Of a DNA stretch of 22,500 nt, positions 1,024 to 21,504 are shown in pieces. The notes below the pieces were generated by a model. It was not told the origin of the DNA, did no database searches, and was given only the letters and a program-made list of their open reading frames with translations. A program made the translations under genes and the position numbers. This stretch comes from Chromera velia (lineage: Eukaryota; Sar; Chromeraceae), in assembly GCA_018398765.1 (NCBI GenBank), contig JAHBMJ010000126.1, positions 12,689 to 35,188 on the forward strand, given 5' to 3'. The first letter of the stretch is position 1. Each line of letters opens with the position of its first letter.

Positions 1024-4000
1024 ACGGACAGAGACGCCTTCCTTCTCCGCTCACCTCCTCATCGACCCATCTTGCAAGGGGAATCAAGTGCATCTGCTTT
1101 CTTTCGTTGATCTCCCCGCTCCAGTCTGCGTCCGGCGGGGAGCTCGGGAAGGAGACTGATCTGCATGTCTTCACGCACTACTCGGCTTCATGCGTCCTCT
1201 CTTTCACTTTCCTTTTTCTGCTCTCTTTTGTGCTCCCTGTACCGGTGCAGCTACGTCTGTGTCCGATCATCTGGACGGATTTGGAGACGAAGATGGTCTG
1301 GGTGAAACTAGGGCTACTCTCTGTGTGGGGGAGGACTTCGACATGGAGCAGATCTGGGCGCAGATAGAAGAACATGTCAGTGATACTGTCTGTCAGGTTA
1401 AAGGCAAACGGGGCACAAAGAACGCAGGAGAAGCTCTTGAAGAATAGAGTAACATGCACTCAACACATTGAAGCAGTCTCAACTCCGACAGGGGAGTCCA
1501 TGCGTGCGCCAGAAGAACGGGTCACTGCAAAGTCTTCTGTCCGCATGATGGTAGAACGAAGTCGGTGAGGCTCAACTGCAGCGTGACTATATTGAGACCA
1601 TGACATCTGCAGGACATGTTATGATGTTGGGCTTTCTTCGGAAGAGAACTGCAGGACTGTTTTGGTTTGCGTGACCGGAATCTTCGTTGAACAGTGAGGG
1701 GAGTTTGCCAATGTTTTCTGGCATTTTCGCTTTCCGCATCGTAGCGTTGTCAATTTGACTGGAGACAGGAGTCCTCGAGATACTTTTTGGAGAAAAAATC
1801 CCAATGCTGTTCGACATATTGTACTGAGCGTTTTGTCGTCTGACCCTGTGCTTAGTTTTAAATCGTTATCACAATTGAACATTCCTGTCCCGTGTATTCA
1901 TGCAGGAAGAGTCCTTTGGCCCCAAGTTGAAGAGAGAGGTGTTGGGAGTCATTAGAAGGGACGAGAAGGGAGATCTTGAGAAGGAGTTCTTGGATGAGGA
2001 CGAAGAAGACGAAGAAGAGGAACAGGTTGGGCAGTGAAGGGGAGAGGGGGGAGAGGCAAAACGTTTTCTTTTTACTTTCAGGGGTCGTTTGATCGGACGT
2101 TCTTTCGCTTGCTCATTTCTTTTTGTCTTCGTCGGCTCACCATCACGTTCGTTGTTCTGCTCGTAGCGCTTCCGCAGAGATGGGAGGGGACGAGGAGACT
2201 TCGTTCTTCTTTCTGTGCAAGGAGACAGAAGCATCTCCGCCCTGGCTGCACCTTCCCTTCCTCTGTCTGCGTGCAGAATGACGAAGATGAAGAGGAGGAA
2301 GAGGGCGAAGAGGAAGACGAAGAGTCCGATGAAGACGAAGAGGAGGAAGAGGACGAGGAGGAATTGGAGAACGGAGGAAAGAAGGGGGCAAAGATGGCAA
2401 ACGGGAAACCGAAGAGAAAATCAGTAGTGGACGATGAATTCTTCAGCCTCGAGGAAGTCGGTCTGTGTGTGTGAGAGAGAGAGAGACAGGGAGAGGGAGG
2501 AAGCGAGAAAGCGAATACGGACGACTTCTCTCATGTGAGAGCGTGAGATGATGGGCACAACTTCTTCTTGGTAGTGACGGAGCTGGAAGGAAATCAGCTT
2601 GAAAGAGTCTCACCCTTAGTTTCTACGAAGCACTCACCCCTTCTTCCTTCCTCACTGCTTCCTAAAAACACCGGCCGGCAGTTGAAGCTAGAAAGTGCGG
2701 CTCTGCATGAGTGGGGACCACAAAAGAAGCCTCTTGGGTTTCTTTCGCATGGGTGCATTCTTCCCCTCCCTCTCCAGCACAGTCTGTCTCCCCTCACCTT
2801 TCTGTGTTCTCGTTTACTCCACGTACTTTTGCTTTGCTTTTTTGTTGCCTGCCGGCATGTGGGTGGGTTCTCTCTCGTTCTTCTGTTTTGAATTGGATGG
2901 ACGCATGCATGCAGATGGAAGAATTCGCTCAAGAGGGAGAGGACGTTGAGGAGAGAGCGAGGCGGAGGGAGGAAGACGAGGACGAGGACGAGGATGAAGA
3001 GGACGAAGACGGAGATGAGCTCGACGACGAGGCCAGAGCCCTCTTGTATGGGATGGAGGACGGAGGGGTAGAGAAGGAAAAAGGAAAGCAGAAAGTCAAA
3101 TACAGCGAGCTGTGGGGGGGCAAGGGCGACTCCTCAGGGACCTCAAAGGACAAGGGGGACAAAAAGAAGAGAGGGGAAGAGGACTCAGAAGAGGACGAAG
3201 GTGGGTGAGGTGAACTTCATTCCTAGCGCTCCCGCCCCCCCCCCAAAAAAGAACTTCATTCCTAGATTGGCAAACGAACGTCATATCAGAGAAGAGAAGG
3301 GGAATGGGTGGCAGAAGACGACGACCATGACCAGTCGTGTGTCTGAAATGACTGTCTGTCTGTCTGCTTGCCTCTCTAATTCTTTGTTTTTTCTATTTCT
3401 GCTTTCATACAGAGCTTGTTGGTGATATTACTGATTTCTTTTTTCTGCCTGTCCGTTTATTTGTGCGTACAGGTTGTCTGTTTCTCATTCCGTGTGTTTC
3501 ATGCTCTGAAGTTTTTTCTCTCTGCCGCACCTTCATGCTTCCACTCACTCCTTTCGTTGACGGCCTGCCGTATTTCTTCTATTTCTCTGGTGGACTTCCC
3601 ACTCGATCTCATGGAGACCTCCAGAGACTGTTGTTGAATCCTGCGACGTGCAGATGAAGAAGAAGATGAAGAGGAAGAGGGAGAGGGAGAAGAGCTGGAT
3701 GCAGAGGAAAGAGAACTAGAGAGACAACTTCAGGAGATGCAAAAGAAACTCAACGAGGAAGAAGAAGGAGATGAGGAGGATGAAGAAGATCAAGACGGGG
3801 ACGAGGAAATGGGAGTGGAAGACGAGGAAGAGGAAGAAGAAGAAAGTGAAGAGGAGGAGAAGGGAAAGGGACAAAAAGCCAAGAAGAAGGTTGACGGAGA
3901 GACAGGAGGCACATCATCCGAAGGAACAAGGTGGGCGGGTGAACAAGCATCGCGGGGGATTTGCATCAACAATTCGCGGACTCCTGCGCTTGCTCTCTCG

Positions 4001-6960: not shown

Positions 6961-8286
6961 GGGTGTGGGTGTGTTGGTGTGCGGTTGTGCAGGTGTGTGT
7001 GTGAGAGAGAGAGAGAAAGAGAGAGGCAGAGGATGAGCAGGCAGGGGAAATAGATAGACGAGGAGAAAAAAAACGCATCCCTTTGTCTTCCGGTACTCCT
7101 CTGCTTTGTCAGGGTGCAACTCTGCGGTGTCACACGCAACAGGTCTTCATTTGGATCTCCTTCACATGACTTCACTTCTTTCCGTCTCTCCTTGCCTGTC
7201 CACATCATTTGGATCTCCTTCACATGACTTCACTTAATTCTTTCCGTCTCTCCTTGCCTGCCTGCCAATGGATTGGATTGATGGATGCAGAGCCGCTCGA
7301 GAGGACCGGGAGGCCATCAAGGAATCGGGACAGACGGCGGCTCAGAAGAAGAAGGAAGCCTTCAAACTGCAGGTCAGTCTGCGTCTGCATGTATCGATTT
7401 GAGGGTGGGGTTCGGATGGAAATCAGGCAGGGCGTTACACATGCCTGGAATGAGCGGAGCACGGTTTGTAAGCTGCTCAGAAGAAGGCAGAGGATTGTCG
7501 GCCGCAGGCTGGCAGGTGAGACTACGAATGGGGTCATCATTTGCTGTATGTCTCTGTTTCTTTATTTCTCTCTAGAGGTGTTTCATTGGTCTGTCTGGAC
7601 GGGATCCTCTTTCTGACTCGCCCTGACAATCAAACAAAGCCCAACACAGCACCGTCATTACGTTTACCCCGTTCTTCCCTTCCTCTCTTCGTACCGAGGG
7701 TGTGTGGAGGGATTCATTGCTCTGTATGGATGCTTGCATTCTGTGTGTGAATGAGACAGTGGTGTCCGCCTTCTCTTTTTACCAATTTGTATTTGAGCCT
7801 TCGTCTAGCTGTTCCCACTTTTCTATTCTTGACTGATCCGACAGTACAGAATATGCTGGAAGGCAATCTGCTTCTACGATCAGTGACTGCATCCGTGCGC
7901 CCACCAATCAGGTAGTGACGCCACTGACGGCAGCAGAACACAAGACCCAATGCTTCCCTCTCCCCTGGGCTGTAATTCCTTTCGGTCTAGACAGATAGCG
8001 GCATGGCTGCATGCGTGAACGAAGAGGCATGTGACACAGAGGCAACAACTTGTTGCCACAAAGATGTGAGCCCTCTTTTCAATCAATGCATGATTGAGCA
8101 TTGATGGCAGCATGCATGAAACATGGATGAATGCAGAGGAAGGTGACAGGCAATCAGCTCCTGGCTGAAGCCTCCAGGCGGTCCAACGAGGACGCACAAC
8201 GACAGCAAGAGAGGAAACGGAGAGGGGGGGCGCCTGACAGAGCTGCGGCCGCTGCGTCAACCTCGAGGGGAAAAAAGCGAAAGTGA
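125..8286 (+). CDS. MPP10: MPP10, U3 snoRNP / SSU processome protein (15 exons)
   Basis: MPP10 works in the nucleolus with Imp3 and Imp4 in the U3-containing SSU processome, which processes pre-rRNA to 18S rRNA. Exons: 125-490, 629-722, 1251-1396, 1906-2025, 2277-2456, 2915-3200, 3654-3930, 4216-4262, 4590-4951, 5329-5561, 5947-6013, 6367-6453, 6670-6734, 7291-7372, 8137-8286. All introns are GT-AG, phases agree at every junction, and the total is 2562 nt (853 residues; human about 680). Family landmarks in order: PELLLSETSAAK-like N-terminal segment (exon 2), FDMEQIW (1337-1357), acidic tracts (exons 4-7), VVDDEFFSLEE (2424-2456), KYSELW (exon 6), LNSLLE (4664-4681), RQRIKDLNFDDVVRK (4832-4876), LADVYAAEF (5335-5361), and a basic C-terminus ending KKRK. 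The start in exon 1 is the least certain part. Exon 4 to 15 order and spacing match MPP10 closely. Assignment rests on recalled family motifs, not a search. Confidence 0.9.
629..722 (+). CDS. MPP10: MPP10 exon 2
   Basis: Phase 0 in, phase 1 out. It encodes the PELLLSETSAAK...FAKNVFDI segment, which resembles the conserved N-terminal MPP10 segment upstream of the FD-EQIW motif. The acceptor is TTGCAG. The donor GTCAGT at 723 lies inside an exact 50-bp tandem duplication (691-790), which repeats the last 32 exon bases and the donor. Only the first donor keeps the frame with exon 3. Confidence 0.8.
691..790 (+). repeat. exact 50-bp tandem duplication across a 5' splice site
   Basis: Bases 691-740 and 741-790 are identical over all 50 positions. 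The unit contains the 3' end of MPP10 exon 2 and its donor GTCAGT, so a second identical donor sits at 773. Confidence 0.97.
883..1032. repeat. (GACA)n / (CA)n compound microsatellite
   Basis: MPP10 intron 2 contains alternating blocks of GACA and CA units with GATA variants. Confidence 0.95.
1251..1396 (+). CDS. MPP10: MPP10 exon 3 (FD-EQIW motif)
   Basis: Phase 1 in, phase 0 out. It carries the conserved FDMEQIW segment at 1337-1357. The donor CAG|GTTAAA at 1397 is preferred over GTGATA at 1380, because only 1396 leaves a complete codon that joins exon 4 at 1906 in frame. Confidence 0.85.
1906..2025 (+). CDS. MPP10: MPP10 exon 4
   Basis: Forty codons, phase 0 on both sides, between ATGCAG and GTTGGG. 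It encodes EESFGPKLKREV followed by a Glu/Asp-rich tail that starts the acidic central region typical of MPP10. Confidence 0.85.
2277..2456 (+). CDS. MPP10: MPP10 exon 5 (acidic tract, VVDDEFF motif)
   Basis: Sixty codons, phase 0 on both sides. An acidic run of about 35 residues is followed by a basic patch and VVDDEFFSLEE, the family's DD-FF-L-EM segment. That motif continues directly into MEEF at the start of exon 6, which fixes the donor as GTCGGT at 2457 rather than GTCTGT at 2461. Confidence 0.9.
2915..3200 (+). CDS. MPP10: MPP10 exon 6
   Basis: Phase 0 in, phase 1 out. It begins MEEFAQEGED, continuing the exon 5 motif, then passes through an Asp/Glu run to KYSELW, equivalent to the MPP10 KY-(D/E)-(F/L)-(F/W) segment. 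It ends in another acidic stretch. The donor is GTGGGT at 3201; the nearby GTGAGG at 3205 would break the frame. Confidence 0.88.
3654..4262 (+). CDS. MPP10: MPP10 exons 7 and 8
   Basis: Exon 7 (3654-3930) is phase 1 in, phase 2 out. Exon 8 (4216-4262) is phase 2 in, phase 1 out. Exon 7 is an acidic, probably coiled-coil segment around ERQLQEMQKKLNEEEE. Exon 8 is only 47 nt and encodes LAALDAKERQLHDMI, equivalent to the stretch before the LNSLLE block in other MPP10 proteins. The exon 8 donor GTCGGT at 4263 runs straight into a (GGTT)n tract. Confidence 0.8.
3995..4070. repeat. (CTCCCT)n tract followed by a G run
   Basis: Pyrimidine-only low-complexity DNA in MPP10 intron 7 is followed by a run of about 11 G. 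Many short ORFs over it are artefacts. Confidence 0.9.
4262..4405. repeat. (GGTT)n at a donor site and a (GT)n microsatellite
   Basis: GGTT repeats start inside the exon 8 donor (4263-4284). A (GT)n tract with a few interruptions follows at 4314-4405. Confidence 0.95.
4564..4589 (+). repeat. (CCTG)n ending in the exon 9 acceptor
   Basis: Tandem CCTG units run directly into TGCAG, the acceptor of MPP10 exon 9. Confidence 0.9.
4590..4951 (+). CDS. MPP10: MPP10 exon 9 (core conserved domain)
   Basis: Phase 1 in, phase 0 out. This is the most diagnostic exon. LNSLLE at 4664-4681 is followed by RQRIKDLNFDDVVRK at 4832-4876, the signature block of the MPP10 family. A Glu/Gly-rich insert separates the two. 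The acceptor TGCAG is the end of a (CCTG)n tract. The donor is AGA|GTGGGT at 4952. Confidence 0.93.
5271..5316 (+). repeat. 21-bp tandem duplication in MPP10 intron 9
   Basis: CTTTTTTGTGTGTCCTGCC occurs twice, about 21 bp apart, just before the exon 10 acceptor. It lengthens the polypyrimidine tract. Confidence 0.85.
5329..5561 (+). CDS. MPP10: MPP10 exon 10
   Basis: Phase 0 in, phase 2 out. It encodes LADVYAAEFEKE and, further on, HRLDALSA, matching the L-A-(E/D)-(I/V)-Y and K-LDALS segments of MPP10. The acceptor is GTACAG, the only one of this gene's 14 that is not TGCAG. The donor is GTGGGT at 5562. Confidence 0.9.
5947..6453 (+). CDS. MPP10: MPP10 exons 11 and 12
   Basis: Exon 11 (5947-6013, phase 2 in, 0 out) encodes PVTMSMGQQQ and PEEFMAPDALK. 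Exon 12 (6367-6453, phase 0 on both sides) encodes MSQEERQALRRAKKERRKAR. These correspond to the 'LAPEE' block and the following highly basic, probably helical region of MPP10, which is rich in K, R and E. Confidence 0.88.
6670..7372 (+). CDS. MPP10: MPP10 exons 13 and 14
   Basis: Exon 13 (6670-6734, phase 0 in, 2 out) and exon 14 (7291-7372, phase 2 in, 0 out) continue the basic C-terminal region. Exon 13 has SMSLKGAAERAEKLQTKN; exon 14 has AAREDREAIKESGQTAAQKK. The 556-bp intron between them holds a (GT)n tract, a 14-bp minisatellite and a tandem duplication. Confidence 0.82.
6834..7004. repeat. (GT)n microsatellite with 14-bp TTCTCGTGTGTGTG minisatellite
   Basis: In MPP10 intron 13 a (GT)n run is followed by five near-identical 14-bp units (about 6866-6935) and then G-rich GT variants. 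Confidence 0.93.
7148..7260 (+). repeat. tandem duplication of about 51 bp
   Basis: A segment starting CATTTGGATCTCCTTCACAT at 7148 repeats at 7206. The second copy has a 4-base insertion (AATT). It lies in MPP10 intron 13, shortly before the exon 14 acceptor. Confidence 0.9.
8137..8286 (+). CDS. MPP10: MPP10 terminal exon
   Basis: Phase 0 in after ATGCAG, ending in TGA at 8284-8286. It encodes TGNQLLAEASRRSNEDAQ and a Lys/Arg-rich tail ending KKRK, a plausible nuclear/nucleolar targeting segment. The 764-bp intron before it has no other exon I can support. Confidence 0.82.
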   Translation, partial: RKVTGNQLLAEASRRSNEDAQRQQERKRRGGAPDRAAAAASTSRGKKRK

Positions 8287-8337
8287 CTGCCCAGCCGTCG
8301 AGCATCTCTAGGACCCTGCAGGCACACACTCAATACA

Positions 8338-8343
8338 AATAAA
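8338..8343 (+). promoter_or_regulatory. possible MPP10 poly(A) signal
   Basis: AATAAA lies 52 bases after the MPP10 stop codon, at the point where the sequence turns AT-rich. Whether this lineage uses AATAAA is not shown by the sequence. Confidence 0.35.
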
Positions 8344-10130
8344 TTCAAAATGTGAAGCAACTGTGGCCGAGGTCACACCGATTTCACGATGACTTCACGC
8401 AAATTCGTATTGTGATTTTAACACTGATTTATAAGATGTATAAGCATAGCTAACTTGAGTTCCTAACTCTTTATATATCGCAAGAATTTCACCGAGAAAT
8501 GCGCGTCTCAAAGTTATAAAATTTAGTGAAATCTAAACAAGTAGATTCTGCGGTAAATTCCACTAAATATGTGACTAAAACTAGGACTAAAATCCTTAAT
8601 TAAAACTCCACGGGCAACTAGACGGGCAAATTCTTATATATCATGCCCACTAGTATGCCTCATGGTTGGCCAGAGCCTACTAGTATAAGTGGTGGCTCAC
8701 CGGCCTTAACCGCCTCAATTCAATTCAATTCAATATTTCATTGTACAATATTCTGTAGACCATTGTACAATACGTGAGTCTGAGGTAATAAGTCTAGCCT
8801 GCTCTTGTGAGAGATTGGAGAGATAGGATAGGATAGGATAGGATAGGATTAATGTCTGGAGGATTAGCCTCCTCATCACTGAGATAACTCAATAATAATT
8901 ATTGAAATAAGGCCATTATTTAAATAATAGCAATAATAATTATCCTAAACCGATAATGAGCCATAATAATTATGCAAAACCCTCAACTTTACCATAAAAT
9001 TTTATTAGATTTATCGCGTGTTTTTAGGTAAAAAACGAATTAAAATTCTTAAAATAATGTGCTTTAAAACTTTGATTAAGCCCACTAAGGCTTGTGAAAC
9101 GTATTTTTGTTCATGATCAAAATAATTATTATTTTTTAAATAGTGGTTATAAAAAAATAATTATTAGGAAAATTTGGTTTGAGTTATCCTACTGATGCTG
9201 CCCCAATGCCGAGCGCTCGACGTGCGGCGTCCAAGAAAAGCGCATACACGCGTCGGACCTTCCTGGCCGGATCAGGAACAACGAATGGATACACAACCAT
9301 TCAGATAGAAAAATCAAAATTCAAAAAGATGAGACCACCTCAGGGGTTAAATTTTGGAGCAGATCTCCCTTTTTATATGGGTCTTAGGGAAGGCGTCCAA
9401 ATTGCACTTCAAAAGCTTCCAAAATTTCGTTTTTCAAGATATATGTACGTTTTTTAGTCTGGTATATATAAACAATGTCATGTATATTAAATTTTATTAC
9501 CTTAAGGTAGACGGCACTGGCGGCACACAGCTAGAGGGCCTTTATCATTGTGGCAACGCCATAGAGGGCGCTAGCCGAATATGTACACCCCAGAGTGGAG
9601 ACCAGTACCCTGGCTAGCATTAAAGTTTTAGTTTGGCAGTTATGTCTAAAATCTCATCTCAGGTCTTCTATCCCTATGGATGGCTATATCTCATGTGAAT
9701 GTAGTCACTGACAGCTTCATCCTTGCCTGATGAGAGGATTGAAGGAGAATAGCTAGATTGACAGACTCATATGACCGAGATCTATAGACCTTCTGTATAA
9801 GACTAGACGGCCTCCTCCTAGGCAGTAGTCTTTACAGATCATGGAAACAGAGCTGGTTCAATAGATCCAGGAAATAGCAGTCGTCCCTTCAAAGTTGCTC
9901 GCCGTCTCTTCTCTAAGAACTGTTACACACGTAGGGTCTTTACACGCATTTGCTATGCAGCAGGTCCCCTCATTCTCTTAGGGTTTGAGTTGATACACTG
10001 ACGCGCTTTTCTTGCAGAACTCCGAAAATTTTCTTTTTTGTCCAAACATCTCTTTTGGAGTTCATAAGTACGGTCACAGTGAGATTTTCCTTCGTTTGTT
10101 TGCCCGTTTTTTTTCTTAGACTGCTTTGGG
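8344..10130. other. AT-rich gene-poor region
   Basis: No gene can be supported. The stretch is visibly lower in GC than the flanking genes. It contains (CAATT)n at 8716-8735, two copies of ATTGTACAATA (8740 and 8762), (GGATA)n at 8820-8850, a small GGAGG/CCTCC hairpin at 8858-8872, and several AATAATAATTAT-like palindromic words between 8890 and 9170. One open frame of 92 codons (9179-9457, no ATG at its start) begins in a short GC-rich patch (9190-9300). I do not recognise its product and do not call it a gene. Confidence 0.6.
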
Positions 10131-12479: not shown

Positions 12480-14188
12480 TCAACTAGACAGATGAAACCA
12501 GTTGAATGGGGCAGCTGATGCCAAACTGTGTCCGAGCAGGTCGGCAATTTGGTCTTCCGGTGGCACGATCCATGTGTCATGCTGCGTCTGGTTTTTCTGC
12601 TTTCCTCGAAGCCACACTCCATGGTGGACTTCCATGGGAAAGCTCTTAAGGGGAGGATTCTCGCCACCTTCCTTGCACTGGTAGCCCCAGGTCTCAATGT
12701 TCTTGAGACCGGGTGTGCAAGCGCAGACAAACAGGTCGTACTTCGCAAATCTGGCACTCACAGGGAGCACCAGAAATCCGATTCGCCCGTTTAATGTGCT
12801 CAAACCCTTCTCTAGCCGCCTCCTCATCGCCGCCTTCAGTTCCTCTGCACTGAACGCTTCACCATGCAGACGGATCACACCACCGAAGCTCTCCAGATCA
12901 CCAGGAGCCAGGCTCTTGATGTCAGGGCATGGCTGCAGGCGTTCCCATTCCACTCCGACGGAAAGGCCCAGGAGTCGGAGCCCCAGTGCCACAGCAACCA
13001 CAGCCTCCCAGGCCTTTCCATCGCCCTCGTCCACAGACCTCAAGCGGTCCAAGGTCAGTGCCAGGGCATGCACATCATCGCCATTCACCCTCGCCCCCTC
13101 GCACTGCTTGAGCATCTCTGAAAGGAATACCGGCGCAATGGAAAGCTTGTCGTTATGGTCGAGGTCAAAAAATTTCCACCAACCCATCAGCAAACCATCC
13201 GTGGGTCGGGTCCCCTCCAAGGTGACTTTGATGAGCTGCTCAAGCCAGGTTCTCCAGCCGGCAGGGTCCTTTGGTACCCCTTCTGCGTTTCTCACAAATC
13301 TTACAGGTTCCGTCTGCTCTCGAAGGCTGGAGACAAGGAGACCCGGTGAACGTCCGAAGTACGCTGCTTCCCCGCGCGCCGTCACCCCTAAGTGCTTTGC
13401 ATCTTCCCATTCAGTGACCTTCAGGAGCGGCAGTTGCTGAAGGCACACGAGACGTTCAGAATTTGAGAGGGGGAACTTTTGCTCGAGCTGGCTCAGGGCA
13501 GTGGGGGTTTCGAAGGTATGCGAGCTGAAGCCAAACAGCCGTCCTGCTGGTTTCATGAATTCGTCCTTCAGAAATCCGTATAGGTCACCCACCTGCGCGC
13601 GGTATTGGACTTCGGGCACCCTCTTCTCCAGCATGTTGGCGAGGCCTAAGAGGGCGTTCAGCTCATCAACAAGCAGGACGCAGTCCTTGCCCGATAGATG
13701 ATCTTGAATGAGCTTTCTCGAAACAGTGTGCTGCGAGCGCCAGGCGGCGAAGTTTTGGGCGACCTTTCTCTGTGCCGGAAGCAATGCCCACGCAACACGA
13801 ATCAACAGGCAGTCCAGGAGCGACACCTGACTGTGGAGGAGCACATCTTCCTCTTCAGCCATCGAAAGGTCGGTGTGATCCTTTCCGTTGAATGAGACAA
13901 ATATAGTGTTCCCCAACATGATGGCCAGCTCTTTCAGTGCCCGGGTCTTCCCACCTCGACTGAAACGCACAACTGCAAGAGGCTGCACCATTCCGTCCCT
14001 GTCATCGCACCTCTCTTTCTGCCTCCTGATCACCAAAGACGTCTGCTCTATCCAGTCTCTTGGAAGAAATTCGCATCTGTCAATATCGGCCAGAAGCGGC
14101 TTGATCTCCTTGTCATCGATGGGCAGTAATGCGTCACTGCTGAGAGCCGATAGCGCTGATCTTCGCCGTTTTCTGTCCTGTCCGTCGT
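12480..14188 (-). CDS. Crinkler/RHS-type P-loop NTPase + PD-(D/E)xK-like nuclease (terminal exon)
   Basis: A continuous frame of 569 codons plus stop (TGA 12480-12482). Numbering from the in-frame ATG at 14204, a Walker A-like loop SRGGKTRAL lies at residues 82-90 (about 13935-13967); the first glycine of the usual GxxxxGKT is Arg80. A Walker B strand ending in DE (CVLLVDELNAL) lies at 175-185. A C-terminal nuclease-like core follows: WE at 399-400, YD at 489-490 and QCK at 509-511. This NTPase + restriction-endonuclease-fold layout is that of CRN effectors and trypanosomatid RHS proteins, thought to derive from mobile-element proteins. The ATG at 14204 is probably not the start: TGCAG at 14193-14189 is an acceptor that joins exon 16 in phase 1. 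Role in this organism is unknown; a nuclear DNA-acting or element-derived protein is inference. No secretion signal is visible here. Confidence 0.75.
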
Positions 14189-17100
14189 CTGCACAACAAT
14201 ACATACAGAAGAATGAAATGGAACGTCACGTCCTGAGACAAAGTCATATGCAGCAATGCAGCAGCATCCAACACTCAAAAGCTCGAGACCCCTCCCGCCT
14301 GACTTCACGTGCCGGCAGCATGCACGGTGGTTCCGCGGCCATCCATAATGCAGCGACACGCACAGCATGTACGCACGCGCACTTCAATCTGGAGACATCG
14401 AATGCAGCCAGCCAGACCACATTCAATCTGGAGACACCAAACGTATGCTGGGGAAATTTTCGTTCCGGCAAAGAAGAAAAGGGGAAGGCCCGCAGACACC
14501 CTCACGGCACGTCAGTTTACAGCATGCTGGAGAAATTTTCGTTCGGCCCGCTCCCGTCTAGCTGACTTCCGCGACCATCCCTGATGCACCGGCCCCGGAC
14601 TCGCACGCGTACTTCAATCTAGCAGAGCTGGACACGTCGAATCGACCAGGCACACGCACGCACGCACGCACGCATACGGGAAGCGCAGCCACAGAGGTAG
14701 CTGACGGGCACGCACGCACGCGGGAAAAAGTCGATCTAAAGAGATTGCTGGAGAAAAATTCGGGGAGAAGGTGACGGCCGCCAAGCACAGCGCTCAATAG
14801 AAGGCAGATGGATCGTTGATCACTCACCAGCTTCTGAGTCATCAAACTGCTTCCTGAGATTCAGTCTCTTCTCAAGACTCAACTTGTTGAACTCCTCTTC
14901 TGAGCCGCCGCTTTCAATCAGCCATTGTCGGAAACCTTCATAGAGGTTCTTCCAAGGACTGGCAGAAGTGTTCCCGTGGTACGCATGAGCGAGCCGGTTC
15001 TTCGTCTTGTTCGACAGCGCCCACTCTGCACCACACAGACAGCCAGCATCTACAGAATTCATAGAGAGGATGGGCGACACAACTGGTGGGGAGAAGAACG
15101 AGCGGCAGAGAGCAGACACATAACCTCGACGGCATGAAAATTGCCTGGGAGAATGGCAAGCGAGGAATCGACGGGACCGCGGACTCAAATTGACTTGCAC
15201 CTGACGTCTCGAGGACTGCTGACTGCACCTCCCCAAAACCGACCTGCAGCAACGTCGGTGTCCGCTCCCCCGTGGCGCGGCTCCTCAAACGGCTCGCCTC
15301 CTCGCACAACGTCGCGGAACTGCTGCACAGAAGAGAAAGAAGCACAGTGTGCAACGCGACAGCGTACGACCTAGCGAACACAAGGGATAGAGGCAGCCGA
15401 CTCACCGTGTTCTGGAGCTTCGACGCCCGATTCGCGTCACAGCCATCACGCCCACCCCGAAGCTGCTCAAGACCTGCAAGCAGGAAAGGAAAGGAAAAAC
15501 GAGGGAGAAACGGAATGCAGTCAAACAGCAACAGAGAGTCCCGAGCCGGACGTAATGGGCGTGCGGACCGCGTACGCGGAAGATGCAAAAGACACCCGCT
15601 GACCAACGTACCCCGGGGAGGCCTTGCAGTCTCAACTCCTCTCCGCCCCCCACCCGCACCCCCGAACAGCCCTCGGCCGGGACCGCCACCTCCAGGACGG
15701 CCATGAGGCCCCGCTCCCCTGGGGTTCCTGACAACTGCAGGAAAAAAGGGCGGAATCGAACTCATGCATGAACACGGAGACAGCCAGAAAGAACGCAACC
15801 GGACCGAGAGGGGCGGGGCGAAAACGAGCAGACACCTGGAGAGGGGGAAAAGGGAAGAAGAGCAAGACCCAACTAGGGGTCCCAATACGAGAGACCTGTG
15901 CGATTGGAAGCCGAAGAACCCTGTTGTACTCTCTTTCGTTTTGCATCGCGGGTGTACTTTACGTCATTTCTCGCGCGTTTGTTCGGCCAGACTGAAGAAA
16001 GCAAACTGAAGGAGGGAAACAAATCTGCCGACGTACTGTCGTCGTGTTGGAGGGGAACCCACACCCTCACGCGCTCCTTGGACTCCGACTGTCCTCCCCG
16101 CAGGTGCACCAAGCCGCCTGAAAGACGCAGAAAACACAAGAATCCTTGCGAGCTTCGATTCCTCGTAGGAGAAAGACAAACCGAGAAAAGCGGAACGACA
16201 TTCCAGACAGACATTCCTGCATCGACTGCATGGCTGTAGCAAGAACAAGCGGTCATGCGGCAAAACGCGAAGACAGACCTCTCAAGTTCCCGTCGTCAGC
16301 TCCCGCTTTGCCCTGGATCTTCGAACCTGCAAAGAGAAGAGATAGAAGGAGACTTCGTGCACGGCTCGACGCTAGATGCGCCCGGATGTTGGAGACTGCC
16401 TCGAAGTCTCTCCCGTCTACACAAAGGCGTGTACAGCACCACAATTACTGTCCCTCGGTTCTGACTGCAGCCCACGCGACATTCCTAAGCCGGCAGTGCA
16501 CCGCAGAAGGACCGACCTACCTGTGCAAACACCGCCTCGCTGGGAGGCTGAGTCCTCCCCGTTCCCGTGGAGCGGTGTCGCCTCCCAAGTGCTCCGACGG
16601 CCCATTCTGGCCCCTGCAGAGACAGCGCTCTATCGAAAGACCGTGAGGGCGTTGCGGTACTCTACTGCTCTCGTGCAGCAGTGACGGGAAACGAATAAAA
16701 AGGAAAGGCAGACAAGAATGGGCGACAAGAAGCTGAAGAGCCTTGCCGTTCTCTACTGCTTCTGCACTTCTCGTGCCCACAAAACGAAGAAGGACCGCAG
16801 CGAAAAAAGGGAAAGACTCGCTGCTGACCTTCACATCCCGAATCCAGTCCCCGATCCCTCAGAGACCCCAGATCCCCGACCAAACCTGCAGTAAAGCCAG
16901 GCATATATGAAAAATTAGGGCCCCTTTCGTTTGTCCGGTCCAAAGCTAAAGAACCGTGCTGTACTCTGCAATTCTTTCGTTCGCGTGCCCGTGTACAGAA
17001 AGAATGCGAAGACGGACCTGCCAACGTGCCCTCCTTGCGTCGGAGAAAGACTGGGGAGCAACGGGCCTCCATGACGTCGCACTCCCGCCCCCCAGTGGCC

Positions 17101-20100
17101 GATTTCTGCCCGTCACCTGTCGGAGCAGCGCTGCCTGCAAGAAAGAAAGCGAGCTGTCCGATTGAAATCCGGAAGCACCGAGAAACGGAAAGTCACGCAG
17201 TCTTGGACGTTCCGAGCAGACGTTAAAGAACCTTGCCCTACTCTATGTGCGCACGTCTTCGGCTGTAATGAGCACATGAACAGAAAGACAGACCTGTCGA
17301 AGCACCGCTTTGATGTCCCGTTTTGCCCAGCCCCTCCCGCCAGGCTGCAGGCACAGTGTCACACGAGCACGCAGAGGGTCCCACAGCAGGAAGCAACAGT
17401 GCTGCATGCGAAAAGAAAGAGACGACCGAATAGACCGAAGGCTTTGCACCCACGATCACAAATCGTTGCAGCACCGTCGTTCGTGACCCACAACTGCTGA
17501 ACCTCACAGTAATGCATGCATACAAACGGAACGAGACTGTCACTGGCCATGGCCTTCGCTGCAGAAAACTTCCCCGACCAAGTCTGTAGAACCGGGAACA
17601 GACCTGTTGAAGTTGCGTCGACGTCCGCTCCCGCTCTACACCCCGCTCTGACTCTATACGCCGCTCGTGCTCTACACCCCGCTCCGACTCTACACTCCGC
17701 TCTTGCTCTACACCCCGCGCCCGCTCTACACCCCGCTCGTGCTCTACCCCCTCCGGCTCTACACTCTGCTGCAGCTCTACACACCCCTTCCGCTTTGCTC
17801 CCTGCCATCGAGACCCTCGCCCCTGAACACAGAGACGGCAAGTCTTGCGTATGGAGTATTAATTGATCAGCGGACCAAGGGAGATGAGAGAAAATCACGC
17901 AGATTGAAAGAACACGCAAGACGCGCCCAATCCGGACGAAGGGAATGATCGAGGCGGAACCGGGCGAAAGAAAACGGGGATCGACGTGAACTATTGAATC
18001 AGAAAACTGGCGAGCGAAAGAAGAAAAGGAAGCACCAGAAAGACTTGATGAACTGCATGGCTCGAGAGACCCACCTTCGGGGCTCGCGTAGACGTTCAAA
18101 AAGGCGTCAGAAGGGGACTGAGCCTGCAGGCAGTGTACGGGAGTGGGAGAAGATACAAAAACGGAGAATGACAAAGGCCAGGGGTTCCAACACGCAACGG
18201 AAAAAATAAACAGCAAACCCACCTCTTGTGTGAAAAGGTTAGTGTAGATGTCGTCCTTGCGCATGGTGCTCGGTCGCGCAAAGACCTCTTCCAGATGCAA
18301 AGAGCCTGTGGGAAGGGCAAGTGCAGAAACATACAAAAACAGCGTGGGAAGGCGACAACGTCAGTGGGGGCAGAAGGAAAGGGACGGGCAGCAGAAAGAA
18401 AAAATGGATAGAATCCAATGACTTGAGAGAGAAGAGCGCCTGAACCTACAGAAAGCGACAGAAGAGAGAGACATGAGCAGAGGAAAGCGGCAGCACTACC
18501 GACGCCGAGACCGTGCAGATACAGGGGCACGATCACGATAAAGAGGCTGAACAGATAGGCAAAGGGTGACACCTCCGACCGCGGGTGACAGTTTTCCACC
18601 AAAGAAAAACCGGAAAAAGAAACCGGACGCTGCAGTCTGCTGACCTTCACATCCCGAGTCCCTCGTAGTTCCCAGGTCCCCGATGCGACCTGCAGGAAAG
18701 CCAGACAGTGAACGAACAGGCTCTCTTCGGGCCCCTTTCGTGTGTCCGAGTCAACCAATCAATTAAGAAGGCAGGCAGACAATCAACCAATCAATTGAGA
18801 AGGCAGGGCAGGCGATCAAACAATCAATTGAGAAGGCAGGCAGGCGATCAACCGATCAATTAAGAAGGCAGGCAGGCGATCAACCAATCAATTGAGAAGG
18901 CAGGGCAGGCGATCAACCAATCAATTGAGAAGGCAGGGCAGGCGATCAACCAATCAATTGAGAAGGCAGGCAGGCGATCAACCAATCAATTGAGAAGGCA
19001 GGCAGGCGATCAACCAGTCAAGACAAGTGGCCACAACTCAGCACACAACGAAACAAAAAGTCGCAAAGACAAAAGAAAAGAAGACAAAAAAGTCCACTCA
19101 GGACCGAAACGAAGGAAAGAAAACATGCACGACAAAACAAAAAAACACACAAAAAAAGCGCCAAACAAGTAGACCCGCTCTGAGTCCTCCAGGAGGTAAC
19201 CAAACCCCCGTGCCCCCGACCAGTTACAAACACAAACCTCTTGACCCTCCCTCATCAACCTTCCCTTCCCTTTTCGTCATTCCATCGCCCATGCCTCAAT
19301 CCCACATTTGCACAACAGCCGGACTCACTCGCACACCCATGCACTCTGAACGTCGTCCCACACATACAGAAAAAGAATTCTGTATGAAAATAACTTCACT
19401 CACTCACTCACCCCAACATCCAGACGTATGCGGCACCATCCCCCCGTCCGTCGAGACTCTGTGCCAGAACGCCAACGGACTCGTGGTCCTCTGCGGTCGT
19501 CTGCATGGCATCATCATCCCCGTCCCAGTCCTCCCCCCCTGCCCCTGTTGCTGAGAGGAACTCAGAGAGGTCCCCACTCCCTCCACTGTCCGCACACCTA
19601 CACCCCCGTCACTCAGCACACCCTCCGACTCCGCTCTCTGCAAAGTGATACCCTCCGTCTGCTTCTTCTGTTGCTGCACAGGTGCATGCTGATGCGTGGG
19701 CGTGAGAGTACCCTCTGCACTCTGCTGCTGTTGTTTTCTGAGATGGTGCATCAAAGTGGCGAGACCCGAAGAAGAACCTGATGCCTCAAAGTCGGTAGCC
19801 GCTGTCACTGAGGCTGCACGCGCGACCTGCAGGGGAGGAGGAATCTCCCCGGCCCCTCCTCCTGCAGCAGGGGCAGGAGGGGGCGCCCCCTCTCTGGCCG
19901 GATTCTTCAGGGGTGGCACGTCGACTCTGCTTGTTGCGGTTGCCGCCAGGGGTGATCCCCCTCCGTTTCCTGACAAGGGTGACATGGCCTCTCTCTCTCT
20001 GTCTCTTTGCCCCCCGTGGGAGAGGGCGTCTCTGTTGACGAGAGACGCCCAGCGGTCTGCTGCACTCATGCCCTCAATCGGGGTCACGGGGGGTGAGAGA

Positions 20101-21099
20101 CGGGTGGGCTGGCTCTCGGCCTCGTCGGCAGCCTGCAGAGACACGAACCCTACGCGATGGGCACTCAAAAGCTCGACGACCCTCCCCGACAGGAAACAGT
20201 ACTGATGCCCTGAGGAGGAGAAGACAACATATGCCATCGCCTTCTTCGAATTGGCCTTCGAATCCTGCCCTGATGCTGCAGCTGCACCGGTTGCCGACCG
20301 CACAAGCGGTCCCCTGATGACGTCACTCCGTCTGATCCCGTCAACCCTCGGCCAGTTGAGCCGTCTCGGGTCTGTGTACTTGGTCTCTGTGGCGGCGCGT
20401 CTGCTCTCCACCACGAACTGCTGCAGACACGCGTGGAGCCTCCCAGACGAGGGCTGCAGGTTGGCCACTTCCAGAGTCTGGAGAGCCTCGGTGGGCATCT
20501 CGTAGCAGATGAACGCAGGGAAACGGGTGGGAAGGGCGGCTGCCTTCGCGACTGTGTAGGTGAGGGAGTCGAACAGATAAGTGCCGGGGCCGAAATCCTG
20601 ACGCTGTCGGGACCCGTCCGGGAGTGGAGGCCAGGGAAGGGGGTCGAGGGGGATGCCGTAGATGGCGTAGTGTTCCGCTTTGGCTTGATCTGCAGGCAGG
20701 CAGGCAGGCAGGCAGGCAAGAACAGAGAACAGGTACTACAGAGTAAGGAATAAAGAGAGAAGGAAGAAGTCGGGCGTGTGGACTGTCTGCACGGACTGAA
20801 TACCTGTTTGGCTTTGTTCTACCCGAGCGGGAAAGAGGATAGACGGCATGCAGATGCGAATGAAGTGGGGGAGCGGAAGATGCGTCAGCAAGGGCTGGCT
20901 CCATCCGTCCGCAAGGGAAGATCGATCCATCCGTCCCTCCCGTGGGGATCGCAACGCAACGCACCCGTGGGGAGCATCCTTCTTGGGACCCATGGTATGT
21001 CACCTGCAGTAGGGAATCGGGAAACGGCAAGGGGAATGTTGTCGGAGTGACAACGGGAGACTCCCTCAGTGACGGCGCAAGTGAAAAGTAGAGTCTCAC
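12480..21099 (-). CDS. 17-exon gene: low-complexity modular N-terminus + CRN-type NTPase-nuclease
   Basis: Proposed exons in transcript order: 21099-20823, 20689-19412, 18689-18645, 18305-18223, 18123-18075, 17768-17604, 17344-17294, 17134-17018, 16885-16829, 16613-16521, 16326-16279, 15991-15896, 15734-15612, 15473-15406, 15243-15201, 15025-14828, 14188-12480. All introns are GT-AG, 14 of 16 acceptors are TGCAG, phases agree throughout, and the total is 4500 nt (1499 residues). Fourteen introns are phase 1. The C-terminal third is a Crinkler/RHS-type ATPase-nuclease. The rest has no domain I recognise and is rich in Gly, Arg, Ser, Ala and Gln. The exon chain was built by me from splice sites and phase, so individual small exons may be wrong. 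The locus may be two genes: without splicing, exon 2 ends at a stop (19404-19406), giving 520 residues. ATG 21099 is in frame with exon 1, but upstream exons cannot be excluded. Confidence 0.45.
14189..14827. repeat. intron 16 with imperfect direct repeats
   Basis: Two imperfect copies of about 225 bp (from about 14296 and about 14557) share CTGACTTC, CATCC-TGATGCA-like and ACTTCAATCT words. A GCTGGGGAAATTTTCGTTC-like word occurs at 14449, 14525 and, diverged, at 14744. ACGC repeats lie at 14650-14675. Confidence 0.6.
14828..15025 (-). CDS. exon 16 of the NTPase-nuclease gene
   Basis: Phase 1 on both sides, between TGCAG and GTGAGT. It encodes a globular-looking, probably helical segment (HAYHGNTSASPWKNLYEGF, then SLEKRLNLRKQFDDSEA). 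This merges smoothly with DDGQDRKRRR at the start of the terminal exon. Of the upstream exons this is the best supported. Confidence 0.7.
15201..15243 (-). CDS. exon 15 (43-nt mini-exon)
   Basis: Phase 0 in, phase 1 out, between CTGCAG and GTGCAA. It encodes VGFGEVQSAVLETS and joins exon 16 as ...LETS-EWALSNK. Confidence 0.5.
15406..15473 (-). CDS. exon 14
   Basis: Phase 1 in, phase 0 out, between TTGCAG and GTGAGT. It encodes LEQLRGGRDGCDANRASK and a few further residues. The in-phase neighbours on both sides fix the frame. Confidence 0.5.
15612..15734 (-). CDS. exon 13, Gly/Arg-rich (RGG-like)
   Basis: Phase 1 on both sides, between CTGCAG and GTACGT. In this frame the peptide is Gly/Arg/Pro-rich (RPGGGGPGRGLFGGAGGGRR), resembling RGG-box nucleic-acid-binding linkers. 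A second frame is also open across this exon, so the reading frame rests on phase with its neighbours. Confidence 0.5.
15896..15991 (-). CDS. exon 12, basic segment
   Basis: Phase 1 on both sides. The acceptor is CTTCAG and the donor GTCTCT. It encodes a Lys/Arg-rich segment (RDAKRKRVQQGSSASNRT) that could be a nuclear-localisation stretch. The acceptor is one of two in this gene that are not TGCAG, so the 5' boundary is uncertain. Confidence 0.4.
16279..16326 (-). CDS. exon 11, symmetric mini-exon
   Basis: 48 nt, phase 1-1, TTTGCAG to GTCTGT. Only this frame is open (SKIQGKAGADDGNLR). It is similar in size, splice sites and G-K-(A/T)-G spacing to exon 7, suggesting duplication. Confidence 0.5.
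16521..16613 (-). CDS. exon 10, symmetric exon
   Basis: 93 nt, phase 1-1, CTGCAG to GTAGGT. The open frame contains MGRRSTWEATPLHGNGEDS. No family recognised. Confidence 0.5.
16829..16885 (-). CDS. exon 9, symmetric mini-exon, copy of exon 3
   Basis: 57 nt, phase 1-1, CTGCAG to GTCAGC. It encodes LVGDLGSLRDRGLDSGCE. Its sequence and flanks match exon 3 at 18645-18689, including the GGGCCCCTTTCGT stretch on the + strand beyond the acceptor. Confidence 0.55.
17018..17134 (-). CDS. exon 8, symmetric exon
   Basis: 117 nt, phase 1-1, TTGCAG to GTCCGT, open for 38 codons (for example SATGGRECDVMEARCS). No domain recognised. Confidence 0.5.
17294..17344 (-). CDS. exon 7, symmetric mini-exon
   Basis: 51 nt, phase 1-1, CTGCAG to GTCTGT. 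It encodes WREGLGKTGHQSGAST, resembling exon 11. Confidence 0.5.
17604..17768 (-). CDS. exon 6, minisatellite-encoded hexapeptide repeat
   Basis: 165 nt, phase 1-1, CTGCAG to GTCTGT. Most of the exon is an 18-bp tandem repeat read as C/Y-R-A/V-x-A-x hexapeptides (for example CRAGAG, CRARAE, CRVGAG). Since 18 is a multiple of 3, changes in copy number keep the frame. An alternative 5' boundary further upstream is possible, since the frame stays open through repeat-like sequence to about 17810. Confidence 0.5.
17621..17790. repeat. 18-bp minisatellite (coding)
   Basis: About nine units of the type GCTCTACACCCCGCTCNN on the + strand, some shortened. They overlap exon 6 of the minus-strand gene. 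Confidence 0.92.
18075..18305 (-). CDS. exons 4 and 5
   Basis: Exon 4 (18305-18223, phase 1 in, 0 out, CACAG to GTGGGT) encodes LEEVFARPSTMRKDDIYTNL and a few more residues. Exon 5 (18123-18075, phase 0 in, 1 out, TGCAG to GTGGGT) encodes AQSPSDAFLNVYASPE. In exon 5 the phase-1 frame has a stop, so phase 0 is required, which is exactly what exon 4 supplies. Both read like real protein but match no family I know. Confidence 0.55.
18645..18689 (-). CDS. exon 3, symmetric mini-exon, copy of exon 9
   Basis: 45 nt, phase 1-1, CTGCAG to GTCAGC. It encodes RIGDLGTTRDSGCE, a shorter version of exon 9 with the same ending and matching flanks. Confidence 0.5.
18755..19020. repeat. 32-33-bp tandem repeat, about 8 copies
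   Basis: Units of CCAATCAATTGAGAAGGCAG followed by GCAGGCGATCAA, with 1-base length variants and a few substitutions, in intron 2 of the minus-strand gene. The array is followed by A-rich DNA to about 19170. Confidence 0.96.
19412..20689 (-). CDS. exon 2, large low-complexity exon
   Basis: 1278 nt, phase 1-1, between a TGCAG at the end of a (TGCC)n tract and the donor GTGAGT at 19411. The first half looks globular (FGPGTYLFDSLTYTVAK, RFPAFICYEMPTEALQ, DPRRLNWPRVDGIRRSDVI, AMAYVVFSSSGHQYCFLSG). The second half is Ser/Pro/Gly/Gln-rich and probably disordered. No family recognised. If the donor is not used, translation stops two codons later at 19404-19406. Confidence 0.65.
20690..20720. repeat. 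(GGCA)n at the exon 2 acceptor
   Basis: On the minus strand this is (TGCC)n running directly into TGCAG, the same arrangement as at MPP10 exon 9. Confidence 0.92.
20823..21099 (-). CDS. exon 1 (putative start)
   Basis: ATG at 21099 opens a frame that continues to donor GTAGAA at 20822 and ends in phase 1, matching exon 2. A TGCAG at 21008-21004 followed by GTGACATACC could instead be an acceptor for this exon, with the start further upstream. A second ATG at 20993 is in another frame and would not match exon 2. Confidence 0.4.
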
Positions 21100-21504
21100 C
21101 TCTCTCGTGATTCCTCCAGTGGAATCCTATGGGCCCTCCCGTGCCGATCCTCTAGCCTGTCTAGAGGTCTCCTCAAACTGCTGTACTCCTAAATTCCTGG
21201 CCCTCTCCTACTAGAGGACCTCAGCGAATACGTTGACTGAACGTACTCGTCTAGACCGATACAGATGGACGGAAATAAATATCTGATCAGTCTATTCACC
21301 AGACAGAAAGTCTATGAACCCCCACAGTCCACAGAAAGCGCCTGCTGGTGGCCTCGTGCAATACTCAGAGCACATAGAGAACTACAGAGACACATAGGGC
21401 ACAGCACAGATCCTACACATGAAGCTCTGTCAATCCCTAGGTCAAGTCTCTTACTCAGACAGACGGAAACTTGAACGGCCGTGCACGTCTGTCTGCCCGT
21501 CTGA

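Follow-up and report, generated by a model that had tools for sequence, protein, structure and literature searches.

Crinkler (CR) proteins, found in oomycetes, fungi and other organisms, join a constant header to diverse C-termini at a junction motif; according to the portions of a review cited here, over a quarter of the C-termini pair a nucleoside triphosphatase (NTPase) with a restriction endonuclease (REase), about a sixth pair an REase with a kinase, and further header types are mentioned (PMC5289972). Short, symmetric exons shuffled among paralogs are described, in the sections used here, for the leucine-rich repeat (LRR)-ROCO genes of brown algae, in which each 72-bp, phase 2 exon encodes one LRR and the shuffling is proposed to diversify candidate immune receptors (PMC11378527). 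Tetrahymena LRR genes carry tandem, uniform 90-bp exons with an extreme bias towards a single phase (phase 2), the proposed mechanisms being clonal expansion and ectopic recombination; the sections of that paper drawn on here mention fusion of some of these genes to other domains, including kinase, and name no Crinkler (PMC6564038). We analyzed a 22,500-nucleotide stretch of the genome of Chromera velia (the window; part of contig JAHBMJ010000126.1, here C126), in which a tandem array of short exons on the minus strand precedes a large exon predicted to encode a CR-type NTPase-nuclease.

This locus resembles both kinds of system. With CR proteins it shares a constant header followed, at a junction, by diverse C-termini of the same two prevalent kinds (PMC5289972); it differs from them in that short, mostly symmetric exons arranged in an array make up the header, the motif of an exon that we call M forms the junction, and the host is photosynthetic (58 genome matches to the light-harvesting family PF00504). 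With LRR-ROCO genes it shares the shuffling, among paralogs, of short symmetric exons that stand in arrays, and with the Tetrahymena genes tandem short exons biased towards a single phase; in contrast to both, its exons vary from 45 to 219 nucleotides (nt) and are mostly phase 1, and, unlike those of LRR-ROCO genes, they are heterogeneous, of low complexity and placed before an NTPase-nuclease exon. Two features of such arrays are present, tandem short exons mostly of one phase and exon content that varies among paralogs, and LRR units of uniform length are absent, in that lengths vary and the translations display no LRR pattern (the short exons were not searched for LRR families). The case would work like both systems; judged by its C-terminal motifs and its layout of swapped parts, it sits with the CR proteins. 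The ubiquitin-like Crinkler header with its LXLFLAK motif (PF20147) had no match in this genome, and no control genome matched either. A first-pass annotation of the window had known of no described case with this architecture. Published LRR genes already display arrays of symmetric exons (PMC11378527; PMC6564038, both in the sections used here), and the architecture by itself therefore has precedents; what stands of that claim is the combination of a mini-exon array with a Crinkler-type C-terminus, of which we found no published example among the titles and abstracts listed in searches of the open-licence PubMed Central (PMC) literature.

We favor, with moderate confidence, the reading that the window gene is a member of a multicopy CR-type (Crinkler-like) family with an exon-shuffled, low-complexity header in a photosynthetic alga. 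In the 5' part, about a dozen short exons, most of them phase 1-1, would encode this header; exon M would come next, with a constant start and a copy-specific remainder, followed by an NTPase-REase or REase-kinase C-terminus.

The 177.8-Mb assembly comprises 4040 contigs (C-numbers denote contigs and L-numbers the loci that we read). Its light-harvesting matches, one of which gave LHCI and FCP chains when compared with PDB, and its 11 matches to alveolins, a family that also matched in the Caulobacter control, make a photosynthetic alveolate likely; psbA and psbD gave no match. On the minus strand of the window, between 18689 and 15244, an exon model chosen by eye contains 13 short exons of 45–219 nt with AG/GT borders, and the full order is A1 A2 A3 T B1 B2 B3 C1 C2 C3 D1 D2 D3 M N (Table 1). 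The array exons, M and N together form a single open frame; 12 of the 14 introns from A1 to N lie in phase 1 and two (A2/A3 and D2/D3) in phase 0, and the donor pattern GTNNGY fits all 14 donors from A1 through M. Because borders and frame were picked by eye, as they had been in the first-pass annotation, this regularity is partly a product of choice. That annotation had proposed at least thirteen tandem short exons on the minus strand within 15201 to 18689, most of them symmetric (1-1), ahead of a CRN-type NTPase-nuclease exon: the thirteen exons were found, most are symmetric in the exon model, splice sites are kept in most paralog copies, and N carries CR-type NTPase-nuclease motifs. Its count of 14 phase 1 introns among 16 requires two additional 5' exons, which are unsupported. 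Within the window, A1 is related to B3 (69%). Where the C3 donor fails in paralogs, eight of the nine misses are second copies (C3'). We dropped the frame that would read T as GVERER repeats, because the fused T-B3 exon is open in phase 1 in the seven copies listed. Rfam, at gathering scores, matched nothing in the whole window.

Table 1. Predicted features of the locus. Positions are those of the window; fractions are paralog copies that keep the property named, omitting copies with a border that could not be placed (one of C1, two of C3).
Feature	Position	Strand	Description
A1	18645..18689	-	45 nt, phase 1-1; sites and length kept in 2/2 copies found
A2	18223..18305	-	83 nt, phase 1-0; sites and length modulo 3 kept in 2/2 copies
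A3	18075..18123	-	49 nt, phase 0-1; sites, length and frame kept in 3/3 copies
T	17604..17822	-	219 nt, phase 1-1; built of 18-nt repeats; elsewhere fused with B3
B1	17294..17344	-	51 nt, phase 1-1; acceptor 3/3, donor 2/3, length modulo 3 2/3
B2	17018..17134	-	117 nt, phase 1-1; sites and length modulo 3 kept in 3/3
B3	16829..16885	-	57 nt, phase 1-1; length modulo 3 kept in 1/13, most copies fused with T
C1	16521..16613	-	93 nt, phase 1-1; acceptor 16/16, donor 15/16, length modulo 3 16/16, open 13/16
C2	16279..16326	-	48 nt, phase 1-1; acceptor 18/18, donor 16/18, length modulo 3 17/18, open 17/18
C3	16037..16117	-	81 nt, phase 1-1; acceptor 25/26, donor 17/26, length modulo 3 26/26, open 23/26
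D1	15612..15734	-	123 nt, phase 1-1; acceptor 26/26, donor 25/26, length modulo 3 25/26, open 20/26
D2	15406..15473	-	68 nt, phase 1-0; acceptor, donor, length modulo 3 and open frame all 19/19
D3	15244..15322	-	79 nt, phase 0-1; acceptor 16/19, donor 18/19, length modulo 3 15/19, open 18/19
M	14828..15025	-	198 nt, phase 1-1; constant motif EWALSNKTKNRLAHAYHGN, then copy-specific stretch
N	12480..14188	-	CR-type P-loop NTPase and C-terminal REase-like part, by motifs GGKTR, LLVDELN, YFGRSPGL, DGKAWE, WGYQCK
End of near-identity with the C146 twin	15174..15299		23% difference here versus 1-5% before; about the D3 3' border into the D3-M intron
H	19404..20735	-	Large open frame; weak near-full-length DUF3990 match (Pfam E 1.1e-4, under cut-off)
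Multicopy repeat fragment	20955..21400	-	Carries an ATG at 20991

Paralogous arrays vary in the exons that they contain. Array DNA, introns included, gave at least 101 listed matches genome-wide, including two on C126 itself, a lower bound for which 40 of 88 candidates were scored. Beside the window we read 20 loci, of which 19 hold array exons (L002 holds N only); L020 coincides with L006 and was excluded. L009 (C146) has the window's array plus a second D2-D3, L010 (C2301) is like L009 from T onward, and L026 is the third locus with a second D2-D3. A second C3 and/or D1 is present in 11 of the 19 array loci (L014 to L019, L021 and L023 to L026), and T and B3 are one fused exon in 12. L006 (C1379) reads C1 C2 C3 D1 D2 D3 M N; L022 (C3518) runs from B1 directly to D2 D3 M and has a B2-like exon upstream of A1. 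In L011 to L018, L021 and L024, a further short exon-like unit (SEWKQ...ELKEREGQ) is present once to three times upstream of T, within the first 1.1 kb in gene orientation; the window thus does not display the full length of the array family. The comparison of exon copy number across paralogous loci, which the first-pass annotation had proposed, thus reveals differing content over the 19 array loci. Its idea of a locus able to diversify the N-terminal part is sustained insofar as paralogous loci differ by exon duplication, absence and fusion.

All of this variation is between loci, which bears on a further reading, namely that the locus is also diversified by alternative splicing of its symmetric exons, as in brown algal ROCO genes. 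Symmetric exons could be skipped in frame, and shuffled LRR exons are alternatively spliced in brown algae according to the sections used of the paper describing them (PMC11378527); given where the variation lies, we think such splicing here quite unlikely.

Length changes among the paralogs distinguish exons from introns. Among copies over 75% identical, exons C1, C2, C3, D1 and D2 differ in length from those of the window by a multiple of three in 36 of 38 cases, versus 19 of 56 for introns C1-C2, C2-C3, C3-D1 and D2-D3; over every exon the figure is 38/53, and over every intron measured 21/59. B3 accounts for ten of the 15 exon misses, because the aligner cut the fused T-B3 exon at an internal AG; the fused exon itself has a length divisible by three in six of the seven copies (of 12 fused) that were readable by pattern. 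An alternative that these counts address takes the array for a dispersed repeat that arose from an old fragment of a gene, its exon-like parts being relics and the gene starting at or near M or N. Besides the length changes, the exon borders kept in most copies and the adjacency of the array to M in many loci argue against such a repeat. In its favor, several array copies carry stops, seven contigs have D-bearing array matches and no M match, a multicopy repeat lies just upstream of the frame H, and introns are conserved like exons: the mean difference is 0.107 for exons versus 0.112 for introns, with exons lower in 63 of 105 pairs (15 copies). The pooled ratio of nonsynonymous to synonymous substitution rates (dN/dS) of C1, C2, C3, D1 and D2 is 0.66, with a corresponding ratio of proportions (pN/pS) of 0.68, and pN/pS exceeds 1 in A1 (1.39, 3 copies) and C1 (1.47, 17). 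Near-equal divergence, the pooled ratio and the values of C1 and A1 together indicate weak substitution-level constraint, and paralogs share ancestry and are not independent, so the counts of length changes overstate the number of events; like the stops, these points weigh against our reading of the array as coding. In the two wrong frames of the pooled exons pN/pS is 0.83 and 0.88, the low end of the per-exon values is 0.30 in A3 (3 copies) and 0.41 in C3 (19), and exon N has a dN/dS of 0.30 against C1379 and 0.49 against C3113. Disorder-promoting residues make up 64% of the array translation versus 50% of that of N. On balance we consider the dispersed repeat unlikely; the array frame appears guarded against insertions and deletions, with weak constraint on its amino acids, and we retain the coding, exon-shuffled header.

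We also compared the symmetry of the array with chance. We searched 18760 to 15200 for symmetric open exons of 40–240 nt that form chains without overlap, requiring a pyrimidine-rich acceptor and a donor of the form GTNNGY. The phase 1 chain reached 9, versus 2.58 ± 1.37 and at most 7 in 200 dinucleotide shuffles. Phase 0 likewise yields a chain of 9, and phase 2 one of 5; since phases 0 and 1 are equal, the shuffle test backs symmetry and not phase, and it is biased towards the real sequence because the donor pattern was derived from the exons under test. An antisense gene was rejected, the plus strand of the array region yielding chains of at most two symmetric exons. Openness in paralogs is similarly ambiguous as to phase: against the model frame, another frame is open in 15/16 versus 13/16 copies of C1, in 25/26 versus 23/26 of C3 and in 19/26 versus 20/26 of D1, and these rival frames count against the phases that we assigned. 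For D2 the model frame is open in 19/19 copies and another in 16/19, and for C2 in 17/18 and the other two in 1/18 each. Because of the rival open frames, openness alone settles the phase for C2 only among copies of C1, C2, C3, D1, D2 and D3; inside the window it fixes the phase of A3 and B3, and phase is otherwise set by joining to M and N.

Exon M marks the point at which the copies part. Its start gave 41 matches on 35 contigs, self included, and 39 of the 40 non-self matches end at query positions 86–100 of 110, about where the motif ends, the remaining one (C51) ending inside it. The query extended only 10–24 bases past the motif, and it is chiefly the translations that show the loss of similarity. 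In fetched copies the motif reads (A)EWALSNKTKNRLAHAY(N/H/Y)GN with small changes, around a constant core of EWALSNKTKNRLAHAY and GN, and the translations that follow are unlike one another: by our own labels some are coiled-coil-like, CxxC ribbon-like or SAM-like, and there are others. Four of these post-motif stretches found nothing above cut-off in Pfam. A D2/D3-bearing array match lies within 2.5 kb upstream on the same strand for 23 of the 41 M matches (22/40 without the window's own), and tblastn found D2- or D3-like exons upstream in 10 of 11 fetched M loci, several of which overlap the 23 (the exception is L040). The common end point of the M matches, together with the two kinds of C-terminus described next, indicates that one header is joined to exchanged C-termini at a constant point.

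Downstream of M, we found CR-type C-termini of two kinds at five of six loci, the window included. Firstly, an NTPase-REase is encoded at C126 and at C1379 (64%), and a distant one (27.5%, E 5e-32) at C3491; secondly, C146 and C3600 carry, by our own reading, an REase-like part and a kinase-like stretch (kinase motifs in L046 and L048). Three family members share LLVDELN, GRSPGL, DGKAWE and WGYQCK without change, and we take these motifs to mark the folds named in Table 1. C3113 has an N exon at 95.5%, and its contig stops just before M. Exon N had no Pfam match and no PDB sequence match, and its relatives were found neither in viral nor in genome contig collections with the few short patterns used, which may miss distant ones. 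Several results speak against the extent of this pattern: the kinase matches are weak (Pfam Pkinase E 0.00033 and 0.12, both under cut-off; against PDB, 0.00079 for C3600 and none for C146), no CR C-terminus was recognized in the 5.4 kb behind M at C2301, and tblastn found no exon N match in about 1.5 kb downstream of the remaining fetched M loci, where kinase and REase were not sought. Assigned by their motifs only, the C-termini would be of the CR kinds, P-loop NTPase with REase or REase with kinase. As judged from sequence, the array precedes different C-terminal enzyme types at the loci read and hence is not tied to a single protein. At C3600, the REase-kinase-like copy is followed by a long frame (L048, 3546–5099) with tandem repeats of the CEHGRxRYxCKECGG type.

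The array and the C-terminus diverge unequally in the same locus pairs, which points to different histories. The window differs from C1379 by 7–12% in the array, 18–24% in D2-M and 17–35% in N; array introns differ by 0.109 and exons by a synonymous proportion (pS) of 0.127, whereas the pS of exon N is 0.489. From C146 the window differs by 1–5% from 20112 to about 15300, and there is no match beyond 14971, where C146 has another C-terminus; C2301 loses near-identity over the same stretch as C146 (15174 to 15299), and a second D2-D3-M alignment of the window with C146 differs by 26%. The block missing from L022 begins in the B1-B2 intron and ends in the D1-D2 intron (17152 to 15487). Unequal divergence of this kind fits recombination or gene conversion. 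Ectopic events of either type, with ends in or near introns, may have duplicated, deleted and re-paired modules, and symmetric exons would permit such changes with the frame intact. Three observations temper this account: the alignable piece of the M-N intron differs by only 5–13% from C1379, so that divergence along this comparison does not climb evenly; identity with C146 fails from the 3' border of D3 and not clearly within the intron; and segment ends were taken as individual cases.

The first-pass annotation had modeled a single gene from 21099 to 12480, with two 5' exons and with H as its N-terminal domain. H does lie upstream of the array both in the window and in the C146 duplicate, and it ends at a GTGAGT donor in the right phase. 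Against a single gene, the window and C146 are one duplicated segment, and the C146 copy of H has a 7-base deletion. A relative of H at C2768 (80%) has the same terminal SGCWGE-stop; 700 bases directly behind it are simple repeat, and the 1.3 kb of sequence there has no match to the array up to window position 17500. L022 carries A1-A3, and the last 300 bases of H are unmatched in the 1.4 kb upstream of it. The exon with the ATG is part of a multicopy repeat: 21000 to 20955, including the ATG at 20991, matches at least 36 further places at 89–98%, and in L054 and L055 the match spans 21400 to 20955 at 86–89% and continues into a frame starting MGPKKDAPHG, which by our own reading looks gag-like. 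We therefore abandon the 5' extension to 21099 and regard the full model as very unlikely; H is probably a separate gene. Between H and the array, 18751 to 19021 holds 8.4 copies of a 32-bp tandem repeat, likewise in the C146 duplicate. Elsewhere in the window, several acidic (Glu/Asp-rich) frames lie over tandem repeats on the plus strand at 2289–3862, possibly as part of another spliced gene, and the GC content of 8251–9750 is 0.38, versus 0.51 on one flank and 0.48 on the other.

Beyond the multicopy CR-type family with its exon-shuffled header, a broader proposal, which we offer tentatively and hold to be rather doubtful, is that of three-tier combinatorial CR-type nucleases (mini-exon header, post-motif domain and enzymatic C-terminus), diversified by recombination in or near introns, and further by exon skipping, into an intracellular defense repertoire. 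By extrapolation from the favored reading, the product could be an intracellular nuclease in conflict with viruses, selfish DNA or other cells, and the header and M domain could set its partners or triggers. If transcripts confirm the gene, it would join shuffled single-phase exon arrays to the Crinkler layout of a header and swapped enzymes, which the papers cited here describe apart. The way in which CR headers recombine with C-termini could then be tested in a photosynthetic organism that has many little-diverged copies, and the finding would suggest that CR proteins also play a part outside pathogens.

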